24,105 nt of DNA from a virus: the IMG/VR virus record IMGVR_UViG_3300007539_000220, positions 1 through 24,105 of that record; one strand, given 5' to 3'. Positions 3,184-21,640 of the stretch are shown here, piece after piece; positions within the stretch are counted from its first letter, which is position 1; every line of letters starts with the position of its first letter. The notes under the pieces are model-generated. The model made no database searches, was not told the origin of the DNA, and saw only the letters and a program-made list of their open reading frames with translations. A program made the position numbers and the translations under genes.

Positions 3184-4164
3184 ATGGCGTTTACATATGC
3201 ACAATTAAAACAGGCGATACAAGATTTTACTGAAAACAGTGAAACTACATTTGTTAATAATTTACCTACATTTATTCGGCTTGCTGAAGAAAAGATTCTG
3301 CAGAACGTGCAGTTAGAGTTGTTTCGTAAAACACAAACCGCAAATCTTGTGTCTAGCAACAAATATTTAAATGTGCCAAGTGACTTCCTTGCGCCATTTT
3401 CTTTAAGTTACACTGCTAATCCTTTTCCGTATGGCAGCCACCAAAGTTCATCTCAATATAATATACCTAATTCTATTTCACGCGCTAATTTAGGTTTTTC
3501 TGCAGATATAGCGTTATTTCAAACGCCAGAAGCTACATCTGGAAGATCTTTAGGGGATATACAGGGTCAAAATGATGGAAATGTAGAACAGCAAGACGCA
3601 TTGCTTATGACACAATATATTGTGTACAAATATGGTGGTGGCTCTATTGCCGATTTAACAACAGACAATATAAGCTACATAGAAAATACAATGCTTCCAT
3701 ACATGGCAGCGAGACAGTCCACTTATTCTAATTTCTACAATCCAAGCTTAATGGTGGGCACTACCTTTATGGATTTTAAAGACCCTAGTTTTCTCCGCGA
3801 ATATCAAAACGATGACGCTGTTACGGGTCAACCTAGATACTACGCTTTGTTCGATAATAGCAACTTTGTGATATCTCCTACACCAGACCAAGATTATTCT
3901 ATTCAGTTGAGTTACTTCTACAGACCTCAAAGTATTACTGCAGGGGCAGATAATGAAACAACTTGGTTAAGTACAAATGCCGAAACTACGCTTTTATACG
4001 CTTCTTTGATTGAAGCGAATATCTTTATGAAGGGTGAGCAAGACGTAACGCAATCCTATATGATGAGAGTTTCAGAGGGCATTAAGCAAATTAAAATGCT
4101 TGGGGAGTCTAAGCAAACTACTGATCTTTACCGCACAGGGCAGATTGTAAGAGCTAAAGAGTGA
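3184..4164 (+). CDS. Phage adaptor/neck protein with a large internal insertion (326 aa)
   Basis: ATG directly follows the preceding stop, with GGAGG at 3174-3178. The ends match a well known marine phage adaptor family: N-terminal 'AFTYAQLKQAIQDFTENSET' with 'NLPTFIRLAEEKIL' and 'VPSDFLAPFSLS' to about residue 76, and C-terminal 'GQPRYYALFDNSNFVISPTP', 'LSYFYRPQSITAG' and 'LIEANIFMKGEQD' from about residue 192. As I recall the family, these parts are nearly contiguous and the protein is about 215-230 residues. Here some 113 residues (about 78-190) are inserted, Ser/Asn/Tyr-rich at first and then helical. The protein most likely forms a ring in the neck between portal and tail, and the insertion may project outward or contact the unusual fibres. 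Family confident; function of the insertion unknown. Confidence 0.8.
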   Translation: MAFTYAQLKQAIQDFTENSETTFVNNLPTFIRLAEEKILQNVQLELFRKTQTANLVSSNKYLNVPSDFLAPFSLSYTANPFPYGSHQSSSQYNIPNSISRANLGFSADIALFQTPEATSGRSLGDIQGQNDGNVEQQDALLMTQYIVYKYGGGSIADLTTDNISYIENTMLPYMAARQSTYSNFYNPSLMVGTTFMDFKDPSFLREYQNDDAVTGQPRYYALFDNSNFVISPTPDQDYSIQLSYFYRPQSITAGADNETTWLSTNAETTLLYASLIEANIFMKGEQDVTQSYMMRVSEGIKQIKMLGESKQTTDLYRTGQIVRAKE

Positions 4165-8200: not shown

Positions 8201-10951
8201 ACTACCAGAATTACTGGCGTAAATTCAACATCAGATGTGTTTACCGCTGCGGGGCATAATATTACAACAGGTGATATGATAAAGTTTGATGGTGATGGTG
8301 CGCCAGGTAATATAAACTTTGGTAACATTTATTTTGGAAGGTCTGTAACCGCTGACACATTCTCTGTTCATTACACAAAAACAGATGCTGATGCGAATAC
8401 AAATTTAATTCAATTAACTACAATTGGAACTAATGCTGATGTTATCGTGTACGATAATGTTGGGGACTTGCATGAGGCTGAAGTTTCATATGTTAATTCT
8501 GACTCAAGAATAACTACATCTGGAGCGCTTCCAGCTACAGGACAAGCTGATGTAAACTATCTTCAGAATACGACACTCTTACTGCGCCCAGATGGTTTTG
8601 CGCTTCACCGACCTTATGATGGCGGTGTGGAGTTAATTCCTCCGACGAACCCTAACAGTCAGATGATTCGTCAAACTCGCAAGTACTTCCGTTACCAGTC
8701 TGGTAAAGGTATCCAGGTTTCGTTCGCGGTGAACTTTAGTCCTACATCTCAAATTGATTCATTCACTAGATCAGGTGATGTTGGAACAATTGTTACTCGT
8801 TTTCCTCATAGGTTAAGCGCGGGAATATTTGTTACAGTAAGCGGTTCTACCAATGTATCAACAGATACTATTGGAACAATTACTAAAAACATTTCCGTAG
8901 CTGCCAATTCTATAAGTGGAGATGATGAATTCTATGTGGATGGAAGCCGCTCTGATTCTTATCCTTTATATGAGGGTCGTACATATAGGTTTGATCAATC
9001 CGATTCATCAAATGCAACTCATCCTTTAAGGTTCTCAGAAACTGAAGATGGCACACACGGTGGCGGGACAGAGCTTACCGCCGCTGACACTGATGTATTT
9101 GATAGTTACACAGTTGTTGGAACGCCAGGAAGTTCGGGTGCATATATTGAATTTGTATTGGCTGATGGATCGCCAAATATCTATTCATATTGTTCAACCC
9201 ACCCAGGTTTGGGTTTCGCGGTTCCCACTCTTGTTGACCCAGATAATAATCAGGCAAATTTATGGAATGGGTCTCACGAAGTTCTAACTGTTCCTGACGC
9301 TTTTACATATACAGTTCAGCTTGACGGGACGCCTTCACAAAATGAAGCACAAGGTGTTGTCGAGTACTATGTCAACAATTGGCAAAACAGTTCATTAAGG
9401 TGTGGCTTATATGATGACCAAAATGGAATTTTCTTTGAGTATGACGGGCGTGAATTATTTTGCTGTCGTAGAAGTTCTATAAGACAGATTAGTGGATACT
9501 CTAACTTAGAGTTCAAATCTGGAAAAGTAATAGGCAACGGAACAAAGTTTGCATCTCAACTTTCAGCAGGCGATTCTGTAGTAATTAAAGGTCAAAGCCA
9601 TAGAGTTGTTAGAATTGATGGCGATGAGCTTATGTATATTGCTCCTAGCTATCGTGGCGTAAATGCAGAAAAGGTAATTATAACGAAAACAGAAACAACT
9701 AAAGTTCCACAATCCTCTTGGTCTTTAGATGTTTGTGATGGAACGGGTTATACTGGTTTCAATCTCGACATTCACAGAATTCAAATGGCTTACATTGACT
9801 ATTCTTGGTATGGGGCTGGTAAAGTTCGTTTTGGATTTAAAGATCAAAACGGTAATGTTCGTTACGTCCATAGTTTTGTTCACGGTAACTTCTTTACTGA
9901 AGCTTATATGCGGTCTGGTAACGTTCCTGCCAGATATGAAATTGAAAACACAGGAGACCCAACTTATGTTCCTGCGTTGGCTCACTGGGGTACGTCAGTT
10001 ATTATGGATGGTCGCTTTGACCCAGATAAAGCATACATTTTTAACGCAAACTCAAGTAATATAACCATTACAAACGCGTCCAGTTTGACCGTTAGTGGGC
10101 GTATTGAGTACGAGAAGGTTTATTACACCAGATCAGGCGGTGCCAATTATCCATTGGGTTATGCGATTATCTTACAATCTCCTGATACAAACTTAAACTC
10201 AGTTGGCGCAGGAATTGGTATTACTGGGGCTAATTTGGCTTCAGATACAAAGACAGCACTTCCATTAACTAACTTTGGGTATCTTTATCAACCTTACCTT
10301 CCTGGCTGGAGGTCAAGAGAGGGTGACATTAGAGGAAATAATGTTGCAAGCTATAAAAACCACCTATTGATTAACAAAGCACCTACAGGAACTTCTGGTA
10401 GTTACACGAGCTACACAGTTGGTACTGCGGCTGACCTTGTTCAGCCCACTAAGGACTTCCCTTTGATTAGTGTACGTTTGGCTCCGTCTGTTGACACATC
10501 TGCACCTGGATTTTTGGGTGAAAGAGAAATTATTAACAGAATGCAGTTGATTCTTAACTCAGTAGGCGTTCTTACAACACACGCAGCAACAATCCAATTG
10601 GTTTTAAATGCTCAACTGTCTTCAAATGAATGGCAGAGAGTTACAAACCCGAGCTTGAGTCAAGTTATTGAACACGTTTCGACTGATGAAGTTAATGGCG
10701 GATTGTCTGTATTTGACTTTGAAGTTCAGGGCGGAACAGGTACTTCAGGTCGTACACAGGTTTTGACAGAGCAAACATTGGGCGATATTGCGACACTTGG
10801 CAATGCTATTCTTGGCGGCGACAATGTATTCCCAGATGGTCCAGACGTTCTAACTCTTGTTGCAAGACTTTCTGAAGACCCTTCAACTGTTAGCTCAAGC
10901 AACCCGTTCCAAATTTCAGGTCGTATTAGTTGGTCTGAATCTCAAGCATAG
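5261..10951 (+). CDS. Giant modular tail-fibre/adhesin-type structural protein (1,896 aa)
   Basis: TAGGAT (5249-5254) precedes the ATG. Residues 108-129 ('NPENLIDTDFEYGLQSTKW'), 1513 onward ('DYSWYGAGKVRFGFKDQNG'), 1547 onward ('EAYMRSGNVPARYE') and the C-terminal 'NAILGGDNVFPDGPDVLT' (from 1848) mark a large structural protein family known from marine phages, including cyanomyoviruses and pelagiphages, usually annotated as baseplate- or fibre-associated. Between them lie at least eight beta modules with a '.H/G….GD.V…' loop, centred near residues 169, 359, 559, 651, 725, 860, 999 and 1183. A Tyr-rich insertion sits at about 430-545 and a cupredoxin-like domain at about 1216-1330. It is probably a virion-surface protein with a role in adsorption. 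There is no transmembrane segment. Family confident, exact position on the tail uncertain. Confidence 0.8.
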   Translation: MGKRLIFGYEFDASAKTVKLHDIYAKKRFLLITNVTDGAIIYQFNDVNLGMSDISFNYETSETTITLNYDTSSMSDDDDLQILVEEESTDVTVNDRYVDPVSKIRVSNPENLIDTDFEYGLQSTKWETLELTKNIPTFFSRSGDISLPITSMDVRTKSDVVTVVTSVNHGLQRGSPIIIKSSGSVSSDGGFVVAAVINDTTFNFKAKTTFLQSRSVLETFTELFAASIYAGTEFKLTNVGGITTNEASPSELTVSTIYPTDFLPGTSMSLSNSFAKSTIDFDTSNVVVENTSDIDISYTSSTATGEDDFFKLGGVSAIEWTPRELRSTYRNLRLTNFFFEEGTTTVDTLSDYITFTEPHGFQTYTPVVYVCDESTNTRIGGLNNMTVYHVYRVNDFTIRLQQYGTTSSSRRIQLSSNGVSGGVTKSAFLECHFHIYYSSQDYGEMYLTYRNGAFYSDRLTLYYELGYSQSQNPVTYFNHNYYGSFSLVSRPTTPFQMNQWAYTSYNYYIRSYSSGWDRRYYLYYDAFSRVFTNNNYSTDTGMLPTNFNVERSSLWVPNHGIAVGLKQPVQISSILNPATSTTGSLPSPLVSGGTYIAERLNDNRIVLSTTTGSQISFFNAGTDDLRYRVQATIPREDANTITISGNTLNEGDAITYNADSGTVIGGLSDGQTYYAALKVGDRFNLSNSANVYGESGACLAQSSFTWVNLSSNLMLIDGTMPFSTGDAVYYTSLSPVVGLKNGNIYWVRVVNTNYIAFYNSAADATADTNRIDILYYGSGRGTFTKVDIVDITSVPATSEVQKFGADFVGAADGIYSVSSTAADQQSFTFAAGSKIEARNKEVVAQTAFVASFDALYIENHGFITGDTVTYTESGTTNLNGLTSGNDYYIIRSNKDFVKFATTEENAISGVAISLTEAGSSATEVTGTISLQPNTIVGSFNGAGVVDFIGGDNIITGDGTKFTSYFNKGDSIFVNIPSDTLTTRITGVNSTSDVFTAAGHNITTGDMIKFDGDGAPGNINFGNIYFGRSVTADTFSVHYTKTDADANTNLIQLTTIGTNADVIVYDNVGDLHEAEVSYVNSDSRITTSGALPATGQADVNYLQNTTLLLRPDGFALHRPYDGGVELIPPTNPNSQMIRQTRKYFRYQSGKGIQVSFAVNFSPTSQIDSFTRSGDVGTIVTRFPHRLSAGIFVTVSGSTNVSTDTIGTITKNISVAANSISGDDEFYVDGSRSDSYPLYEGRTYRFDQSDSSNATHPLRFSETEDGTHGGGTELTAADTDVFDSYTVVGTPGSSGAYIEFVLADGSPNIYSYCSTHPGLGFAVPTLVDPDNNQANLWNGSHEVLTVPDAFTYTVQLDGTPSQNEAQGVVEYYVNNWQNSSLRCGLYDDQNGIFFEYDGRELFCCRRSSIRQISGYSNLEFKSGKVIGNGTKFASQLSAGDSVVIKGQSHRVVRIDGDELMYIAPSYRGVNAEKVIITKTETTKVPQSSWSLDVCDGTGYTGFNLDIHRIQMAYIDYSWYGAGKVRFGFKDQNGNVRYVHSFVHGNFFTEAYMRSGNVPARYEIENTGDPTYVPALAHWGTSVIMDGRFDPDKAYIFNANSSNITITNASSLTVSGRIEYEKVYYTRSGGANYPLGYAIILQSPDTNLNSVGAGIGITGANLASDTKTALPLTNFGYLYQPYLPGWRSREGDIRGNNVASYKNHLLINKAPTGTSGSYTSYTVGTAADLVQPTKDFPLISVRLAPSVDTSAPGFLGEREIINRMQLILNSVGVLTTHAATIQLVLNAQLSSNEWQRVTNPSLSQVIEHVSTDEVNGGLSVFDFEVQGGTGTSGRTQVLTEQTLGDIATLGNAILGGDNVFPDGPDVLTLVARLSEDPSTVSSSNPFQISGRISWSESQA
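5741..9330 (+). repeat. Tandem-like series of degenerate beta modules within the giant protein
   Basis: At protein level at least eight units share the plan 'hxhxxxxHGhxxGDxVxh … GGLxxGxxYxVxxxxxxxFxh'. Clear examples are 'SVNHGLQRGSPIII', 'TEPHGFQTYTPVVY', 'VPNHGIAVGLKQPV', 'ENHGFITGDTVTYTESG', 'AAGHNITTGDMIKFDGD' and 'RFPHRLSAGIFVTVSG'. Spacing is 75-200 residues because of insertions. They resemble units that domain databases sometimes label as the E1 FCCH fold, which here would mean a small beta barrel and not ubiquitin chemistry. DNA identity between copies is low, so these are old repeats. Confidence 0.65.
8906..9250 (+). other. Cupredoxin-like domain inside the giant protein
   Basis: Residues about 1216-1330 read as a separate domain: 'YEGRTYRFDQSDSSNATHPL' with His1254, 'DGTHGGG' with His1266, 'GTPGSSGAYIEFVL', and 'YSYCSTHPGLGF' with Cys1311 and His1314. 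The order His … Cys-x2-His is that of type 1 copper proteins such as plastocyanin. Marine phages often carry this domain with a Met two or five residues after the last His; here the positions are Leu1317 and Phe1319. Copper binding is therefore possible but not assured. Confidence 0.65.
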
Positions 10952-12796: not shown

Positions 12797-15700
12797 ATGG
12801 CGAATTTTGGTCGCAAAATGTGGGGCTGGAAGCACAGCCTAAAAGGTGCATCAAACACCGAAATGAAGCCTGATGTTATAAGTTTCCCACCTTATAAACA
12901 GGGGCTTAATTTAGACCCCCTAACATATCAAAGTAATAGAAATATACCCGACTATGGCAACGCTAGTGGGTCTTTTGCAGACTATGTGTATTGGAATACT
13001 GGGGGTAAGTTTGCAACTGAAAGCGACAAGGCATTTTTGTTTGCAATACAACTCCGTGAAAGCACAAGTATTTTTAAATACCCTATGTATAGGCAATATC
13101 TTGATATAAATGTTGCTCAAAAATTATCTTATGCAGATTCGACTCTTGCTAACCAGTATAAGTGTTACGTTTCATATGATATCCAAAATGGGTATTCTGA
13201 CCCATATCCTGATGATGATAGCAATCATTATTCTTCACTGGCTCTTTCTGGAATTGCTCCTCACACTCCTCTAAATTTAGATTATGCAAACCAAAAAAAT
13301 TACGATAGTGTATATCCAACACTTTTTGCACGAAACCTGCCATTTGGGCCACAAAACGGACAGCTTGCAGGTTTTAATGCTTTTTTTGGGTATGACTCTA
13401 CTTCCGCCGTTAGCGACAATACTCTTTTAGAATATTTTCAATTTCACAAAACAGTGGCGGGCACAAGAACGCTTGCAGCAAGTTACGAACTTTCTCAAAT
13501 AAAGACAGATGTCCCATTTAACTGGAATCAAGTGGATGGCGGGAATCCAGAATTTGAGCTTATGGGAAATATGTTTGACACGTCTTTTAGCAAAAAATGG
13601 AAAACATATTCAAATACTAAAATATCTTATCCCGATAGTGACTATTTGACTCCTGATTGGGATCCGATTGGTTATAATTCACTTGGTGACTGGAATATTC
13701 TTTTAGACAACAGGTATGCAGGGAAAACAGTAAAGTCTACAATTAATTATACACCTGGCAGGACTTATCCAAATATGCCAGGTCCAGATCAGTCTATGAT
13801 CGTAGATATTGCTTTTGAAATTGAATTGGCACTGCAAAGATATGGTTGTGATTACACAACGCATGATTTCACAAGCGCTAGTTCTGCAGACTACACAGGT
13901 TTGCCGCTTGACGAAGTTCCAGACGCAGTTCCTCAGTTAAGCTATGTCGCTGGTAATTTTTGTTTCTACAAAGGGGGCAGCGGTCAATACAATGAGGGAA
14001 CTCATCTTTTAATTCCTGTGTACCTTAGAGCAATTAGATTGAGCGATCAATATGCCACAGGTGATTATCCTATTCAAAACAATGGGCATGTTAATAAATA
14101 TGTTATGGTCGCTATTCGTTTGGAAAAAAGATATAACGTTGGAAGTTTTATCCCAAACAGTGGCGTTGTCCTTGATCTTGAAAAATCTGCGGGCACATTG
14201 ATGGAGGCCTATCATAAGGTCTTGGGGGTAGATACTGGAATTCAAACTAGAACAGCAGCAGGTCTTGCCATTAATGTAATACCTGATGAACAAAAGCACG
14301 ATAAATCATTTCAGCTTGCTCGTGTGCGAAAGGGCCAAAAATTTGTAAGTGGTACATCGGGATATTCTGGGGAAGTAAATCCACCAACCTGTTTAAGGAT
14401 TTCAGAATCTGGAAAATATGGTTTTTACTCTGGTGGAACAATATACAATGGTTCATATACGGGTCCAAGAACCTTTACTTATCCAGATGATTTAGAAGCT
14501 CCAACCAGTTTTACTTTTAATGACAACGGAACTAAAATGTTTATTGGGGACAGCAGCCCCAACAGTGGAGCCGTCTATAAAAGCAAAATACTTATTTATG
14601 ATCTGTCTTCTGCGTATGATCCGTCAACAGCTTCTAACCTTAGAACGGTAGACCTTCATACTGACTTGGGAATTCCCACTACAGCCAACAGCAACACTAA
14701 TAATCTTTTGTGCTTTTGTTTTAGCAATTACTCAACAAACTCTGGAGAAAAGTTTTGGGTAGTTACAGGTGGTTGGAAAATATATGAATATACTATGCCA
14801 GCGGCATGGGATTTAGAAAATGCAGATGTAAACGATCAAGACGTTGTCTACGATCATTTTTCCTCTGACGGTATAAATCAAGTGCAAGGCATAACTTATG
14901 CTATGCTGCCTAAAGTTATTTACAACAACAACAGAGTCGAAACTCTTCAAGAAAAATTATACATTTCTTGTGGCCCATCTGATATAACTTATACTAATGA
15001 AATTGTTCAATACGATGTCGGCGTTAACCCTGGCGTTAGCTTGCCTTCTCTCTCAAGTGTTACTTCTGTTGAAAAATCAAGTGGTACTATTTCTAGCTTA
15101 ACAAATTCTTATCTTACTGAAGTCGCTAATATATTTTTTGCAGATGGTCTTCCCAGTCCAGGTACACCTAAGTACTGGGAAACCACTCAACCAGTTTTTG
15201 TCTGCGGTCAAGACTCCAATGGAGATGGCAGAATAGTACAATTATATATGCAAGAAAAAGGCGAAATTGATACATTAATATACCACAACCAAGCAAAATG
15301 GGAAAGCACAGCCAGTGTTTATGCTAGTCGTTTTGGCGATATTGGCGACATGAACGATGATATTATCGTTATGGGCGCGCGCAGCACAGACACGCCAGAT
15401 GGCGGCAGCGGTACCTACGGGGGGAGTTCAGGAAGCGCATTTGTTTTTGACAGGCAAACTGGAGAAGAATTAGCACGACTTGGGTTGCAATCTAGGCCTC
15501 GCGGGGGATTTTTAGAATTTGGAAGTAGTGTTGCTGTTAGCAATGATTACATAGCAGTTTCTTGGGAGGGAAACGCAACTGGCACTGCTTATAATTCTAC
15601 TAGATGGGGAGCAGTCGATATTTTTGATGCGACTACGAGAGCTTACCTTCGCACTATATATAATCCAGATGAACTGGATACCACTATGACAAGTAGACGT

Positions 15701-18700
15701 GACTTTGGAGTTGGAGGTGAGCTTGTATTTACTCCAGACGGGTCAAAGCTTATTGTTTCTAATGGTACATATTGGATTTGGATAATAGACCCATCAAATG
15801 GTTCTGTAATAAGAAGAATTCAAAGCCCAATTACCCAAAGTAATGCTCTATTTGCGGCTAGAAATGGTTTGGCAGCTAGTAATTCTTACATTGTTGCGGG
15901 GTCGCCAAATTACATTAATAGCGGGGTAAAGGGTCGAGCATACATTTTTAATATAAGTAATGGTTCAACACGAGCTACTATAGAAAACCCTAGAACAGTA
16001 AGCGCTGACGGCTCATCTGTATATCCGTTTGGACAGTCTGTTGGAATTAGCTTAAATGGCACATATGTTACTGTAAGTCACCACATGTCAGATGATGGTG
16101 TCTTTGATAAAAAAGGCGCAGGTAGACTTTATGTCTACAATAACTCTGGCACATTCCAGAGATATTTTTCATCCCCTGAACCAAATAATGGAGATGGTCT
16201 CACAAACTCTACAGGCGAATCTTATAGCTATTTTTCACTTTGGCATGCTCATGGTAAAGATGTTCAGTCTCAGAATCGTGTCCTTGTTTGGTCTACTGAA
16301 GGTGTTTGGCAATATGACATTACAGGAAACCAATCAGCAACCACACTAAAGTCATTAGACTGGAAGCCAACTTGGCCTTTTGATATCAGCGCTTCGTCAA
16401 ACGCAAATCGTGCATATTCGTATAATATGGGATATCCCTTTTATACATATAATACATGGGACTTTGGTGGCGGTACTTTGCTTTTTGATTCAAATCAAAT
16501 TTATATGAGTTCTACTTCTGCCATACAATATAGTACAAATAGTAATAATAATTCAGGTAGTCTTCATGCTTATGATAATGATCCAATCGCAACTGACCTA
16601 ACTAAAGTGAAAGCAGGCGGCACGACTCAAAATGTAAGAAACTTTTTCTACCGCAACGATACACAAACATTTTACTTAATGGTTAACCAAAACGGATATA
16701 TTTCTTCTGGGGCAGATAAGACCTTATATGTTGCGACTTTTGATGGGCATCCCTTTAACCTCAGAAATCCAAATGATGATGGGGACGCATCAAGAGGTAG
16801 ACCTCTTCTTAGCAACATTTCTGGAATAACGGCTTCTGAAAGTTCGCATAAAATCACTAGATTTAAAGCATATGATAGTTTTTTCAGAGGTGGTGAATAT
16901 TTTTGGCACACTACTGAACTACCAAACGGTGGAACATATACTGCAAAAAATACACCAATAAACGAAAGAAAAACTTTAAGAGACCCATTTGATACACCCA
17001 ATCCATCTATTCAAACTATTGATTTTAGCATGGAAAATTATGTTGATCCTGATAACACAGGTGGTCAGAGTTATGACTCTGATGAAATGGTTGCAGAAAA
17101 TGTAAGAACTGCATGCCCTGGTTATGGCCCAGGCGGCACTTATGGAAGTTATACATACTACCAGTATGGAAATTGGAGACATGATGTAACAAATGCTTTT
17201 ATTAGATCATTTAGATTTTCTAATGATGGAAAATGGCTTTATATTTTATGGGTAACAAACACAAGAATTGCAAATGCGTCTGACGCATCTATAGAGCAGT
17301 GGGTTGAAAGATGGTGGTTTGGAGACCCTGAAGGTTATGAGTGTTCTGACGAAAACTTTGTAAACGCAAAAGATCACAATGTGTATTATGATGGCATTGC
17401 AGATGCAGATATCGTTATTGATCCTGTTGTTTATTTCGCAGGCACTACTCATAAATATGTAATTCAAGGAGATAATAGTGGTGGTTATTTAAATAGTGCA
17501 ACATCTATAGATGTAACGCCTGATGGAAAATTCCTTCAAGTAATGCAGCCATATTCAAGGATTGCGGGCCAGGAAAACAATAAGCCTATGATTGTTGAGC
17601 ATTATTTGGGCGGCAATGATATGGGATTAGCCCCTACATTCAGAAAGCCTAGGTCAAGCGCCACAAATCCTCAAAAATTAAAATGGAGAGGTTTGCAGGG
17701 TAAGCCAACAAACCCATGGATGTACTTTCACCAAGCGAGAAACTATGGCGGTTCTTTGCTCTTTGGTAATACTTCATACTGGTGGCCTATGATTCCTTGC
17801 CAGCCAGGAAACACTAGCAATACAACAATAACATATGACACAAGCACTGGAAATTTTAGTGGCGGTGGTTCAACTGTTTGGGCTGTTTGGGACAGAACAT
17901 ATAAAAACGGAAGATATGACTGGCACTCTGATAGAAGCAACTGGGCAGGAAGCGGTGCAACTGTGTTTGAAAGCGACAGTCGTTGGGTGGCTGACACAGA
18001 TTATGACATTATGCCTAGCGACTTTTCATGGAATAGAGAAGGTACTGTTCTCTATATGTACGGCGCGTTTCCTGAAGATAATAATTATTTAAACGCAGGT
18101 GGCTTTAGGCGAAGAGGCATGCCTTACATGTTAAAGGCTCCTTTGTATGCTACAAACAATTATCCAGGTTGTGTCAGAATATCTGACTCAGGGAATAGAA
18201 CTGGTGGAAATCCCAGAAGCAGGTACGACTATCTTTATGAGCACCTATATACAAATAGGATTCAAGGGTTTTTAGAAGAAAAGAGCCTAATGTCTCCAGA
18301 TCAAGATAACACTAGCAGTTACGATTACCATGCCTGTTATTTTCTTCCCAATGATGAGGATATTACAGGTGGGGGTTATGTTGCTATCCTGGCGGCAGAG
18401 GTCCAAGATTATTCTGGAAATTATTGCTGGGAGTTTGACGGTTTAAATGTGTCAGACACAGCCGTAATAAATGAAAATTCTGAAGCAAATCCTGTAGAAA
18501 ATCTTATATTTAAGAAATCCATGGTGGATATACCGTCCGCTGTCAATCCTCCGATAGACTTAGATGGCGTAATAACTTACCAAATTAGTTTTTGGAATCA
18601 AACCATTGATTACCCTCCAGAAATACAAGATACAGCAGGTAATCCGCTAGGTACAAGTGATGGTGTATTTATAGAGCAAGCGAGTGCTTCTGACTTTGCA

Positions 18701-21640
18701 AACGGAGATGGATACATAGTTATCCGTGTTTCGAAAGATGCAGATTGGACAAATGGTGGCGGCAATTCAAATAATAGTGTTTTATTGCATTTTGCAAGCA
18801 CTCGACCATCTAACGGTTTAGACGCAAAATTATATTTTACTGAAACAGACTTCCTTGAAGTTTGCTCTCAGCCCTTAAGTTGGGAAAGCAAGCATGGCAT
18901 CTCTACGGATGCAGATTATAAAAACTTTAGCAAGCCACGACAGTCATTTGCTATAAACTATCCTACAGTTTGGGATGATGTGCCTACAGCAAGAAGAGAT
19001 AGTGTAGATATAAACTCTAATAATTGGCAAACCACTTCAGGTGGGTATCCAACATATGGCAATGGAGCTATGTCTACTGATGAAGCTGATGCAGCTCTAC
19101 AGTACAGTGCGTTTGGGTGGACAAATTGGAGTGCAGCTTTTTGCGAAAATCCAAGTCTGCAAGGTAAAACTTTTCCAATGGCTAGTGTCTTTGCCCACCA
19201 TAAGGGAGGAAGGTATCTATATACCATTGTGGAAGACACCAACGCAGAAAGACAACCTGATCCTGTTTCTTCGGTTAATAACTTTAGACCACTGTATTTA
19301 GCGATTCTCCCTATTGAAACAAATATAGAAGAGAATCTATTAGGTGATGGACCTCTCTATGCTTATTATTGGGGACAAGATACTGACACTGGGTCAGGAT
19401 ACACTGACTATAATTATTTAGGGTGGGGCGTTACTGAAAACTCAGTTGATGGTCCGCGCATGCCCGCATCATCCACTAGCTCACTTTCAAGTTCAGTTTA
19501 CCCAATTAGACAATGGGGCGGAATGTATGCGTCAAGCCACAATAGCTATGTGGTTTTAAGCTATTCTAGCTCTACTTCTTTTGATTCAAATACGCGCCTA
19601 AATGTTCCTGCGATGCAGAGACCTTATCCAGATGGATCGTCTGAGGATAAATACGCCATGGGTGTTGATTCAATGAGCTTAGATCAATATTCTTTAGATA
19701 CGCAGCCAGTTAACAACTCTGACAAAAAGTTTTTAAATTACAGGAATGATCAGCTCCCCTTAAATTTAAGTTCTCCAAATCTAACTGAAAGAGGGGCAAA
19801 TGTAGCATCTGCTCCAATTATAGAATATAAGGGCGACCAATCATACTTTATCTTTAGAGATATGAAAGGCGGGAAATTTGGCGCATTATGGGGGCGGGCA
19901 GACACAGGTACTTCGCCATCGTTTATAGATAACGCTGGTTGGGGAATAAATAATTCAAACACCCTTAGTGGAAACGCAAATCCTTTTTTGGAAGCTCAAT
20001 TTATATCGTGCAACTGGGGCCACTATGACGATATGTTTGACCTACCCAAGTTTACAGTAAGCACTCCTCGTAACTTTACTCTGAATACAAGTGGTTACGC
20101 GGACTATCCAACTTACTTTAATATGTTGCAGCGAAAAGAAGCTGAGAGTGAGGACGGTTCTGTAAGTGATTCATATTACTACATAACACAGCAAAAGTAT
20201 AATAATGCATTTGCAATTAATAAGTCTGCTATCGCATACAATGATTATAAAAATGTTTACAATTCTGGTTCTAATGCAGTTTTAAATATTTTAGAAAGTT
20301 CTGGTTTAGTTTCAGGAGATTCTTATGTTACCGCAGCAACTGGTAGCTCTACATTAAGTGGTGAGATTGATTTCTATTACCACAACCCAAGATCAACAGA
20401 CTCTTACGGGAATAAAAATGTAGCCTCAGTTCGCTCTTTTAGATTTATGGACAATGGCTACAAGTTATTTGTTTTAATTTCTGGAGGCAGTCGTGAAATC
20501 AATTCTCAAATTACTGGAAATGCAGCGTTTACCCTAACAAAGTATGAGCTAACAAGCCCGTATAATATTACTGCTATAAATACAAGCGCGACTCAATCAT
20601 ATACCTTCCACCAAGACAGTAATTATAGCGGTAATTGGTATGATTACTGGTGGGGTGCAATGCAAGCACCAACGGCATACTTTGGCGCAGATTTCGCCAT
20701 GCATCCAGACGGTGATAAGTTTTGGGTTATTGGACTTGAGTCGCAAAGAACAAATCCCCCAGGTCAGCCAGCCCGTCCAACTGAAGGCCGAACAATATTA
20801 AGAGAGTTTACGTTAAGCACGGATTGGGACTTAAGCACTGTTTCGGAAAATGGCTTTGCCAATTATGATAATTCTGCAGGTGCTAATATAACTGCACCCC
20901 TTGAAGTTCCTGTGTCTTTAGAGGTTTCTCCAGACGGTAATTATGCTTACTGGACACAGCAATATGGCTCTCAAAATAGGTTTGACCCCACATCTGATTG
21001 GGGCGGAAATAATACAACAGGTGATTTTGCAGGTTCAAATTTTGGCGAAAGCAAAATGCGCCACTTTAAAGTAGAACTTACAAATCCATATGACCTAAAA
21101 AACCCAGTAGACTCTTCAGATAACAAAATTGTTGAAACAATACAGGGGCCAAGCGGGCCTATAACCCGAACAACTCGTGGCGCTTACTGGACTGCAGATG
21201 AAGGAGCTGCTCAAAGGATTAGGTTTGTAAGTGAAGATAGGTGGTATCGTACAAACTATGCATCTGAATTAGTAAGAAATGATCAAAATCCTTCTCTTCA
21301 CTATGATTCAGAGGGTGATCCTGGGTACGATATGACTGCATCTCAAGAAACTCAAAAGGCTGTGGCAGTTAACTGGCCTATTGGCGGCGTATCTTCATAT
21401 AGCGCGGTTGGTCAAAAGACTCAGAAAGTTGATGGAAGCTTTTCTATTGGCAATATGGGTATGTTTAAAAACGTAGAGCCATCTGGTGGATACACTGGAA
21501 GTTATCCATTCCGCGAAGCTTGGGCACCTTATCAAATGTTTATATTTGAGATAAATCCTGAAGAAAGTGTTATACTCGTAAGCGATACACAATGTAGAAT
21601 TGTGCCTTTGTTATTAAACAACAGCACGAAAGGAATCTAG
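12797..21640 (+). CDS. Giant beta-propeller tail protein, likely adhesin (2,947 aa)
   Basis: The ATG is 7 nt after the fibre gene's stop, with no clear ribosome binding site. Residues 1-530 (start 'ANFGRKMWGWKHSLKGAS') match nothing I know. Around 534-800 and again from about 1470 to 2760 run propeller-type strands of the form 'FxFxxDGxKhahh': 'SFTFNDNGTKMFIG' (571), 'SFRFSNDGKWLYILW' (1471), 'SIDVTPDGKFLQVM' (1570), 'DFSWNREGTVLYMYG' (1742), 'SFRFMDNGYKLFVL' (2547), 'DFAMHPDGDKFWVIG' (2632) and 'SLEVSPDGNYAYW' (2707), some followed by 'YxLSxxxDLSTxx'. Residues about 840-1270 form an FG-GAP-like seven-blade series. Aromatic, Asn and Ser content is high. The protein most likely lies on the virion surface and binds the host; this is inference from repeats, size and place after the fibre gene. 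Confidence 0.75.
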   Translation: MANFGRKMWGWKHSLKGASNTEMKPDVISFPPYKQGLNLDPLTYQSNRNIPDYGNASGSFADYVYWNTGGKFATESDKAFLFAIQLRESTSIFKYPMYRQYLDINVAQKLSYADSTLANQYKCYVSYDIQNGYSDPYPDDDSNHYSSLALSGIAPHTPLNLDYANQKNYDSVYPTLFARNLPFGPQNGQLAGFNAFFGYDSTSAVSDNTLLEYFQFHKTVAGTRTLAASYELSQIKTDVPFNWNQVDGGNPEFELMGNMFDTSFSKKWKTYSNTKISYPDSDYLTPDWDPIGYNSLGDWNILLDNRYAGKTVKSTINYTPGRTYPNMPGPDQSMIVDIAFEIELALQRYGCDYTTHDFTSASSADYTGLPLDEVPDAVPQLSYVAGNFCFYKGGSGQYNEGTHLLIPVYLRAIRLSDQYATGDYPIQNNGHVNKYVMVAIRLEKRYNVGSFIPNSGVVLDLEKSAGTLMEAYHKVLGVDTGIQTRTAAGLAINVIPDEQKHDKSFQLARVRKGQKFVSGTSGYSGEVNPPTCLRISESGKYGFYSGGTIYNGSYTGPRTFTYPDDLEAPTSFTFNDNGTKMFIGDSSPNSGAVYKSKILIYDLSSAYDPSTASNLRTVDLHTDLGIPTTANSNTNNLLCFCFSNYSTNSGEKFWVVTGGWKIYEYTMPAAWDLENADVNDQDVVYDHFSSDGINQVQGITYAMLPKVIYNNNRVETLQEKLYISCGPSDITYTNEIVQYDVGVNPGVSLPSLSSVTSVEKSSGTISSLTNSYLTEVANIFFADGLPSPGTPKYWETTQPVFVCGQDSNGDGRIVQLYMQEKGEIDTLIYHNQAKWESTASVYASRFGDIGDMNDDIIVMGARSTDTPDGGSGTYGGSSGSAFVFDRQTGEELARLGLQSRPRGGFLEFGSSVAVSNDYIAVSWEGNATGTAYNSTRWGAVDIFDATTRAYLRTIYNPDELDTTMTSRRDFGVGGELVFTPDGSKLIVSNGTYWIWIIDPSNGSVIRRIQSPITQSNALFAARNGLAASNSYIVAGSPNYINSGVKGRAYIFNISNGSTRATIENPRTVSADGSSVYPFGQSVGISLNGTYVTVSHHMSDDGVFDKKGAGRLYVYNNSGTFQRYFSSPEPNNGDGLTNSTGESYSYFSLWHAHGKDVQSQNRVLVWSTEGVWQYDITGNQSATTLKSLDWKPTWPFDISASSNANRAYSYNMGYPFYTYNTWDFGGGTLLFDSNQIYMSSTSAIQYSTNSNNNSGSLHAYDNDPIATDLTKVKAGGTTQNVRNFFYRNDTQTFYLMVNQNGYISSGADKTLYVATFDGHPFNLRNPNDDGDASRGRPLLSNISGITASESSHKITRFKAYDSFFRGGEYFWHTTELPNGGTYTAKNTPINERKTLRDPFDTPNPSIQTIDFSMENYVDPDNTGGQSYDSDEMVAENVRTACPGYGPGGTYGSYTYYQYGNWRHDVTNAFIRSFRFSNDGKWLYILWVTNTRIANASDASIEQWVERWWFGDPEGYECSDENFVNAKDHNVYYDGIADADIVIDPVVYFAGTTHKYVIQGDNSGGYLNSATSIDVTPDGKFLQVMQPYSRIAGQENNKPMIVEHYLGGNDMGLAPTFRKPRSSATNPQKLKWRGLQGKPTNPWMYFHQARNYGGSLLFGNTSYWWPMIPCQPGNTSNTTITYDTSTGNFSGGGSTVWAVWDRTYKNGRYDWHSDRSNWAGSGATVFESDSRWVADTDYDIMPSDFSWNREGTVLYMYGAFPEDNNYLNAGGFRRRGMPYMLKAPLYATNNYPGCVRISDSGNRTGGNPRSRYDYLYEHLYTNRIQGFLEEKSLMSPDQDNTSSYDYHACYFLPNDEDITGGGYVAILAAEVQDYSGNYCWEFDGLNVSDTAVINENSEANPVENLIFKKSMVDIPSAVNPPIDLDGVITYQISFWNQTIDYPPEIQDTAGNPLGTSDGVFIEQASASDFANGDGYIVIRVSKDADWTNGGGNSNNSVLLHFASTRPSNGLDAKLYFTETDFLEVCSQPLSWESKHGISTDADYKNFSKPRQSFAINYPTVWDDVPTARRDSVDINSNNWQTTSGGYPTYGNGAMSTDEADAALQYSAFGWTNWSAAFCENPSLQGKTFPMASVFAHHKGGRYLYTIVEDTNAERQPDPVSSVNNFRPLYLAILPIETNIEENLLGDGPLYAYYWGQDTDTGSGYTDYNYLGWGVTENSVDGPRMPASSTSSLSSSVYPIRQWGGMYASSHNSYVVLSYSSSTSFDSNTRLNVPAMQRPYPDGSSEDKYAMGVDSMSLDQYSLDTQPVNNSDKKFLNYRNDQLPLNLSSPNLTERGANVASAPIIEYKGDQSYFIFRDMKGGKFGALWGRADTGTSPSFIDNAGWGINNSNTLSGNANPFLEAQFISCNWGHYDDMFDLPKFTVSTPRNFTLNTSGYADYPTYFNMLQRKEAESEDGSVSDSYYYITQQKYNNAFAINKSAIAYNDYKNVYNSGSNAVLNILESSGLVSGDSYVTAATGSSTLSGEIDFYYHNPRSTDSYGNKNVASVRSFRFMDNGYKLFVLISGGSREINSQITGNAAFTLTKYELTSPYNITAINTSATQSYTFHQDSNYSGNWYDYWWGAMQAPTAYFGADFAMHPDGDKFWVIGLESQRTNPPGQPARPTEGRTILREFTLSTDWDLSTVSENGFANYDNSAGANITAPLEVPVSLEVSPDGNYAYWTQQYGSQNRFDPTSDWGGNNTTGDFAGSNFGESKMRHFKVELTNPYDLKNPVDSSDNKIVETIQGPSGPITRTTRGAYWTADEGAAQRIRFVSEDRWYRTNYASELVRNDQNPSLHYDSEGDPGYDMTASQETQKAVAVNWPIGGVSSYSAVGQKTQKVDGSFSIGNMGMFKNVEPSGGYTGSYPFREAWAPYQMFIFEINPEESVILVSDTQCRIVPLLLNNSTKGI
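15314..16606 (+). repeat. Seven FG-GAP-like propeller blades within the giant protein
   Basis: Blade starts are Phe846 ('FGDIGDMNDDIIVMGA'), Phe908 ('FGSSVAVSNDYIAVSW'), Phe970 ('FGVGGELVFTPDGSKLIV'), Phe1019 ('FAARNGLAASNSYIVAG'), Phe1078 ('FGQSVGISLNGTYVTVS'), Phe1146 ('FSLWHAHGKDVQSQNRV') and Phe1223 ('FGGGTLLFDSNQIYMS'). Spacings are 62, 62, 49, 59, 68 and 77 residues. Several blades end in a strand such as 'GSAFVFDRQTGE', 'GAVDIFDATTR', 'GRAYIFNISNGS' or 'GRLYVYNNSGT', as in FG-GAP repeats of integrin-type propellers. Seven blades is the usual number for a closed ring. Confidence 0.65.

Follow-up and report, generated by a model that had tools for sequence, protein, structure and literature searches.

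The 24,105-base virus record analysed here (the window) encodes a giant virion structural protein, one beta module of which is interrupted by a domain that, taken alone, is very probably cupredoxin-like and equipped with the ligand set of a type 1 copper site. As judged from sequence, this domain belongs to a large family whose members sit mostly in the virion proteins of marine phages, a small number also occurring in surface-type proteins of marine bacteria. The explanation that we favour for the domain as a whole, at somewhat better than even, is a copper-binding attachment module. The features discussed below are collected in Table 1.

Table 1. Features of the carrier protein and its inserted domain in the window.
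Feature	Position	Strand	Remark
Carrier ORF, 1896 aa	5261..10951	+	Virion structural protein, phrog_5838 / phrog_1645 type
Left half of interrupted beta module, residues 1178-1198, VTRFPHRLSAGIFVTVSGSTN	8792..8854	+	Conserved with and without insert
Inserted cupredoxin-like domain and linkers, about residues 1199-1332	8855..9256	+	Missing from empty-site homologues
His1254, first predicted copper ligand	9020..9022	+	Conservation rank 4/131 columns
AADTDVFDS, residues 1274-1282	9080..9106	+	Stretch ~7 residues longer in window copy than in nearly all relatives
Cys1311, predicted copper ligand	9191..9193	+	Rank 1/131 columns; invariant in A2
His1314, predicted copper ligand	9200..9202	+	Rank 3/131 columns; invariant in A2
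Leu1317 (TTG), axial position	9209..9211	+	Relatives have Met (ATG); alignment
Right half of interrupted beta module, from residue 1333, NLWNGSHEVLTVPDAFTYTVQL...	9257..9330	+	Homologue comparison

The carrier protein matches the phrog_5838 profile of PHROGs with an E-value of 4.4e-165, which places it in that family, a virion structural protein in the PHROGs category 'head and packaging'. The first-pass annotation had called it a tail adhesin. That label finds no support in this category; the cupredoxin-like fold, the nested placement and the conserved ligands that it had also put forward all stood. The best full-length homologue is encoded in the record Podoviridae sp. ctQRb9 (MW202722.1). 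The window itself has the appearance of a structural region from a short-tailed phage, because the genes ahead of the carrier ORF include two separate ORFs (1992-2693 and 3184-4164) matching the SU10 adaptor family. Further along, positions 12797-21640 hold a 2947-aa ORF without a PHROGs match, for which Pfam gave only a sub-threshold PD40 beta-propeller hit. A weak match to the domain in the window's next giant ORF (E 1.7) was judged not credible.

Comparison with homologues identifies residues ~1199-1332 of the carrier as an inserted domain. In MW202722.1 the site is empty: window residues 1-1199 correspond to residues 1-1171 and window residues 1327-1896 to residues 1169-1736, with nothing between. 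The same empty site occurs in about 20 other homologues from viral contigs, where both flanks align cleanly. The earlier proposal of a cupredoxin-like domain nested inside a beta module is thus borne out, as is the point at which the module was said to resume (NGSHEV at residue 1336). The module starts at residue 1178 (VTRFPHRL), not near 1168 as first given, and the insert, previously placed at 8906-9250, reaches slightly further on its left side, the homologues giving about 8855-9256. The GC content of the insert is 0.417 vs 0.395 (sd 0.024) across windows of the carrier ORF, a difference that is not telling as to a foreign base composition.

Homologues of the carrier also show where else the domain has been placed. 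About 17 loci in viral contigs have it at the place seen in the window (site A), and seven homologue loci have it elsewhere, near homologue residues 640-820 (site B); one of the latter is incomplete, and its domain is numbered from residue 153. When a tree was built from host-protein sequences stripped of the domain, all site-A carriers formed one fully supported clade (100/99) and all five site-B carriers tested formed another (100/99). Since the carriers of each site fall into one fully supported clade, the tree indicates a single gain at site A, in the window's clade, and a single gain at site B. At a third loop (site C), just ahead of the same beta module, three loci (L152:5482-6537, L154:7314-8372 and L166:7323-8372) encode a divergent cupredoxin-like domain (GHPLWIKT...YYNCQNHATM) that is closer to plastocyanin. 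On these comparisons, cupredoxin-like domains were acquired at least three times by one structural-protein family.

The AlphaFold2 model of 8858-9250, based on a 97-sequence alignment, has a mean pLDDT of 94.9 and a pTM of 0.88. Its leading PDB matches in Foldseek are copper nitrite reductase, laccases, AcoP, pseudoazurin with an amicyanin loop, rusticyanin and amicyanin; a small number of the matches listed are other beta proteins, and the probabilities are mostly 0.9-1.0. None of the PDB matches has an E-value below 1e-3, and the TM-scores are about 0.40-0.53. We read the model as that of a distant cupredoxin. Structure prediction had been suggested as a check on the original proposal, and the predicted fold, in resembling cupredoxins, leaves that proposal standing. 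Cyanophage virion proteins are among the best matches in predicted viral structures, with E-values down to 1e-15. A second model, covering residues 1096-1460, gives the domain and its flanking strands at high confidence; rusticyanin, CueO and AcoP are once more among its PDB matches. The domain model also matches 'Beta-sandwich proteins' of Pithovirus and Marseillevirus relatives (BFVD A0A481Z6J5 and A0A481YVH3; TM 0.68-0.69), which may be cupredoxin-like too.

At the level of sequence, the window domain has no significant match in Pfam, NCBIfam or PDB sequences. No Pfam family covers it; PF00127 is not matched by the window domain, and is matched weakly by 5 of 100 relatives. The best PDB sequence match of the family profile is pseudoazurin (YQCAPHVGMG), at a non-significant E-value of 0.42. 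Compared directly with cyanophage plastocyanin, the family profile reaches a probability of 3%. It matches the site-C subfamily at 96.6%, and the site-C subfamily, whose profile consists of three sequences only, matches cyanophage plastocyanins at 92.2%, the Cys-x2-His loop being aligned. In controls for the profile pairs (60 column shuffles each, reversed profiles and host-module blocks), the probability never exceeded 1.8%. The claim of homology to cupredoxins therefore rests on the intermediate site-C subfamily, since the direct comparison with plastocyanin fails; through these profile matches, that subfamily links the window family to plastocyanin.

The ligand positions are the most conserved part of the family. 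Of the 131 columns in the 97-sequence alignment, the four with the highest relative entropy are, in descending order, Cys1311, the axial position 1317, His1314 and His1254. The motifs lie where they had been reported, THPLRF at 1253-1258 (His1254), GTHGGG at 1264-1269 (His1266) and YCSTHPGLGF at 1310-1319. Free variation at His1254 and Cys1311 would have spoken against the original proposal, and both are among these four columns. The type 1 equatorial set, His...Cys-x2-His, is present in the window and near-invariant across the family. For an unbiased sample of the axial residue, viral contigs were scanned with a DNA pattern in which the Cys and the second His were fixed and the axial codon was left free: Met was found in 109 of the 109 copies having that column, and the first His, also free in the pattern, was kept in 105 of 106. 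The family spacing, C-x2-H-x2-M, is that of amicyanin. Some natural sites have Leu, Phe or Gln in place of the axial Met; the family has Met and the window Leu. Leu1317 and Phe1319 had both been offered as the axial residue. The Met of the relatives sits at 1317, which settles on Leu1317; Phe1319 was rejected, its column being usually Gly (Gly/Phe) and ranking 74 of 131.

Leu at the axial position is rare, with 11 copies found in two Leu pattern scans, and the TTG codon of the window is one base away from ATG. On the domain tree, seven changes between Met and Leu are needed, and well-supported branches make three of these unavoidable, which indicates at least three separate origins of Leu. Descent of Leu from one change inside the site-A clade was rejected, the window and L098, another Leu copy, not being sisters on the host-protein tree. 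Some Leu copies may be decaying, because two of them (L008 and L337) have also lost the first His, replaced by Asp. A 1938-aa ORF at locus L322 has two copies of the domain (83-206 and 1360-1494), which differ in their axial residue: Leu in one, and in the other Gln (CHFHTGQG), as in stellacyanin.

These variants raise the question of whether the domain, at least in the window, now serves only as a structural or binding beta-sandwich and has given up its metal. The window copy has no axial Met, carries the extension of about seven residues and scores below most of its clade mates against the family. In the next giant ORF of locus L100 (frame 0 after codon 3893, ~1007-1072), a homologous stretch (E 5.6e-9) is without copper ligands. 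Because this stretch lacks the ligands and L008 and L337 have Asp for the first His, it appears that loss of the metal site need not mean loss of the fold. We nevertheless hold a metal-free window copy to be improbable: the window retains the other three ligands, His1254, Cys1311 and His1314, it is precisely the ligands that are conserved across the family, and in natural type 1 sites Leu can take the axial position. There it raises the redox potential, and natural fungal laccases and ceruloplasmin bind copper with Leu in place of Met.

Relatives of the domain are numerous. Candidate stretches coding for them number at least 593 in viral contigs, so the domain is far beyond chance. In isolated phages the genes that contain it go by the names tail fibre, baseplate wedge or virion structural protein, the carriers being phages of Synechococcus, Prochlorococcus, Pelagibacter and Methylophilales. 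Genome contigs contributed 25 loci, nearly all marine, some of which may be viral. Two large proteins from these contigs were examined; they have Ig-like Big and FG-GAP domains. One of them, on a 1-Mb Bacteroidetes contig (locus L174, Bacteroidetes SCGC AAA795-G10), is a 3858-aa ORF that combines the domain (1747-1867) with DUF285, FG-GAP and Ig-like domains. In being put into loops of unlike surface proteins, phage and bacterial, the family behaves as an attachment or display module would.

In the preferred explanation, the family would bind one copper ion in the predicted type 1 site, and the window copy, by analogy with the laccases and ceruloplasmin, would still bind copper with Leu in place of Met. 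The copper-loaded domain, inserted in a surface loop of the carrier, would sit on the outer face of the particle and help it to hold a partner on the host surface. Because the metal site is conserved, the copper would matter for the stability of the module or for its contact.

The same ligand set matches type 1 electron-transfer sites, and the axial changes seen, Met to Leu and one Gln, are of kinds found in natural copper proteins. Both facts would fit a redox role, in which the site passes or takes an electron at the host surface, or senses redox, and so brings about a step of infection, the Leu copies being high-potential versions. We regard this as quite unlikely: no electron partner was seen, a Pfam search found no known redox family in the carrier protein, the domain is inserted in various loops of various proteins, and nothing shows a switch. 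The metal or redox sensing with conformational change that had been suggested for the domain is unsupported. An add-on binding module fits better than an electron-transfer enzyme, because the domain was gained repeatedly at different loops and occurs in giant bacterial proteins with Ig-like domains.

Strict conservation of the ligands over a wide family of marine phages would also agree with a 'Trojan horse', in which the virion carries copper as cargo and docks, through the loaded domain, on a metal-uptake receptor of the host. We consider this unlikely, given that copper is tightly held in type 1 sites, whose usual function is redox, and that no receptor or host link was found. It has a published parallel in iron, where HxH motifs in the tail fibres of marine phages are proposed to bind the metal, although the iron case is itself a hypothesis (PMC11705849).

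More broadly, we suggest tentatively, at rather less than even confidence, that an unnamed copper-binding cupredoxin family is widespread on marine phage virions and has on repeated occasions entered different structural proteins and different loops, such that the particles form a pool that binds copper and the metal has a part in host attachment or entry. If this were true, copper would be part of virion function, and phage particles, which may carry bound copper, would be tied to marine trace-metal chemistry. The carriers are abundant marine phages, and the domain is small and well predicted. The open-licence papers searched yielded no description of a cupredoxin domain within a phage virion protein, and the discussion of metal in phage adhesion that we did find concerns iron.

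Among known systems, amicyanin, pseudoazurin and plastocyanin (PF00127) share with the domain its predicted fold and the ligand order His...Cys-x2-His-x2-Met. They are free periplasmic or thylakoid carriers, whereas the domain described here is embedded in giant virion proteins, and the window copy differs from them further in having Leu for Met. Five PHROGs families (phrog_27200, 693, 30742, 708 and 6005) contain the same domain; they are labelled tail fibre, baseplate, structural or unknown, and none is described as a copper protein. The plastocyanin of cyanophages (petE) is a cupredoxin too, and S-TIM5 encodes petE alongside the virion domain; petE, however, stands apart as a metabolic gene that serves the infected cell, and its direct profile match to the domain is not significant. 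The iron-binding HxH motifs of tail fibres resemble the present case in being metal sites in phage adhesion proteins, and differ from it in metal, fold and ligands (PMC11705849).
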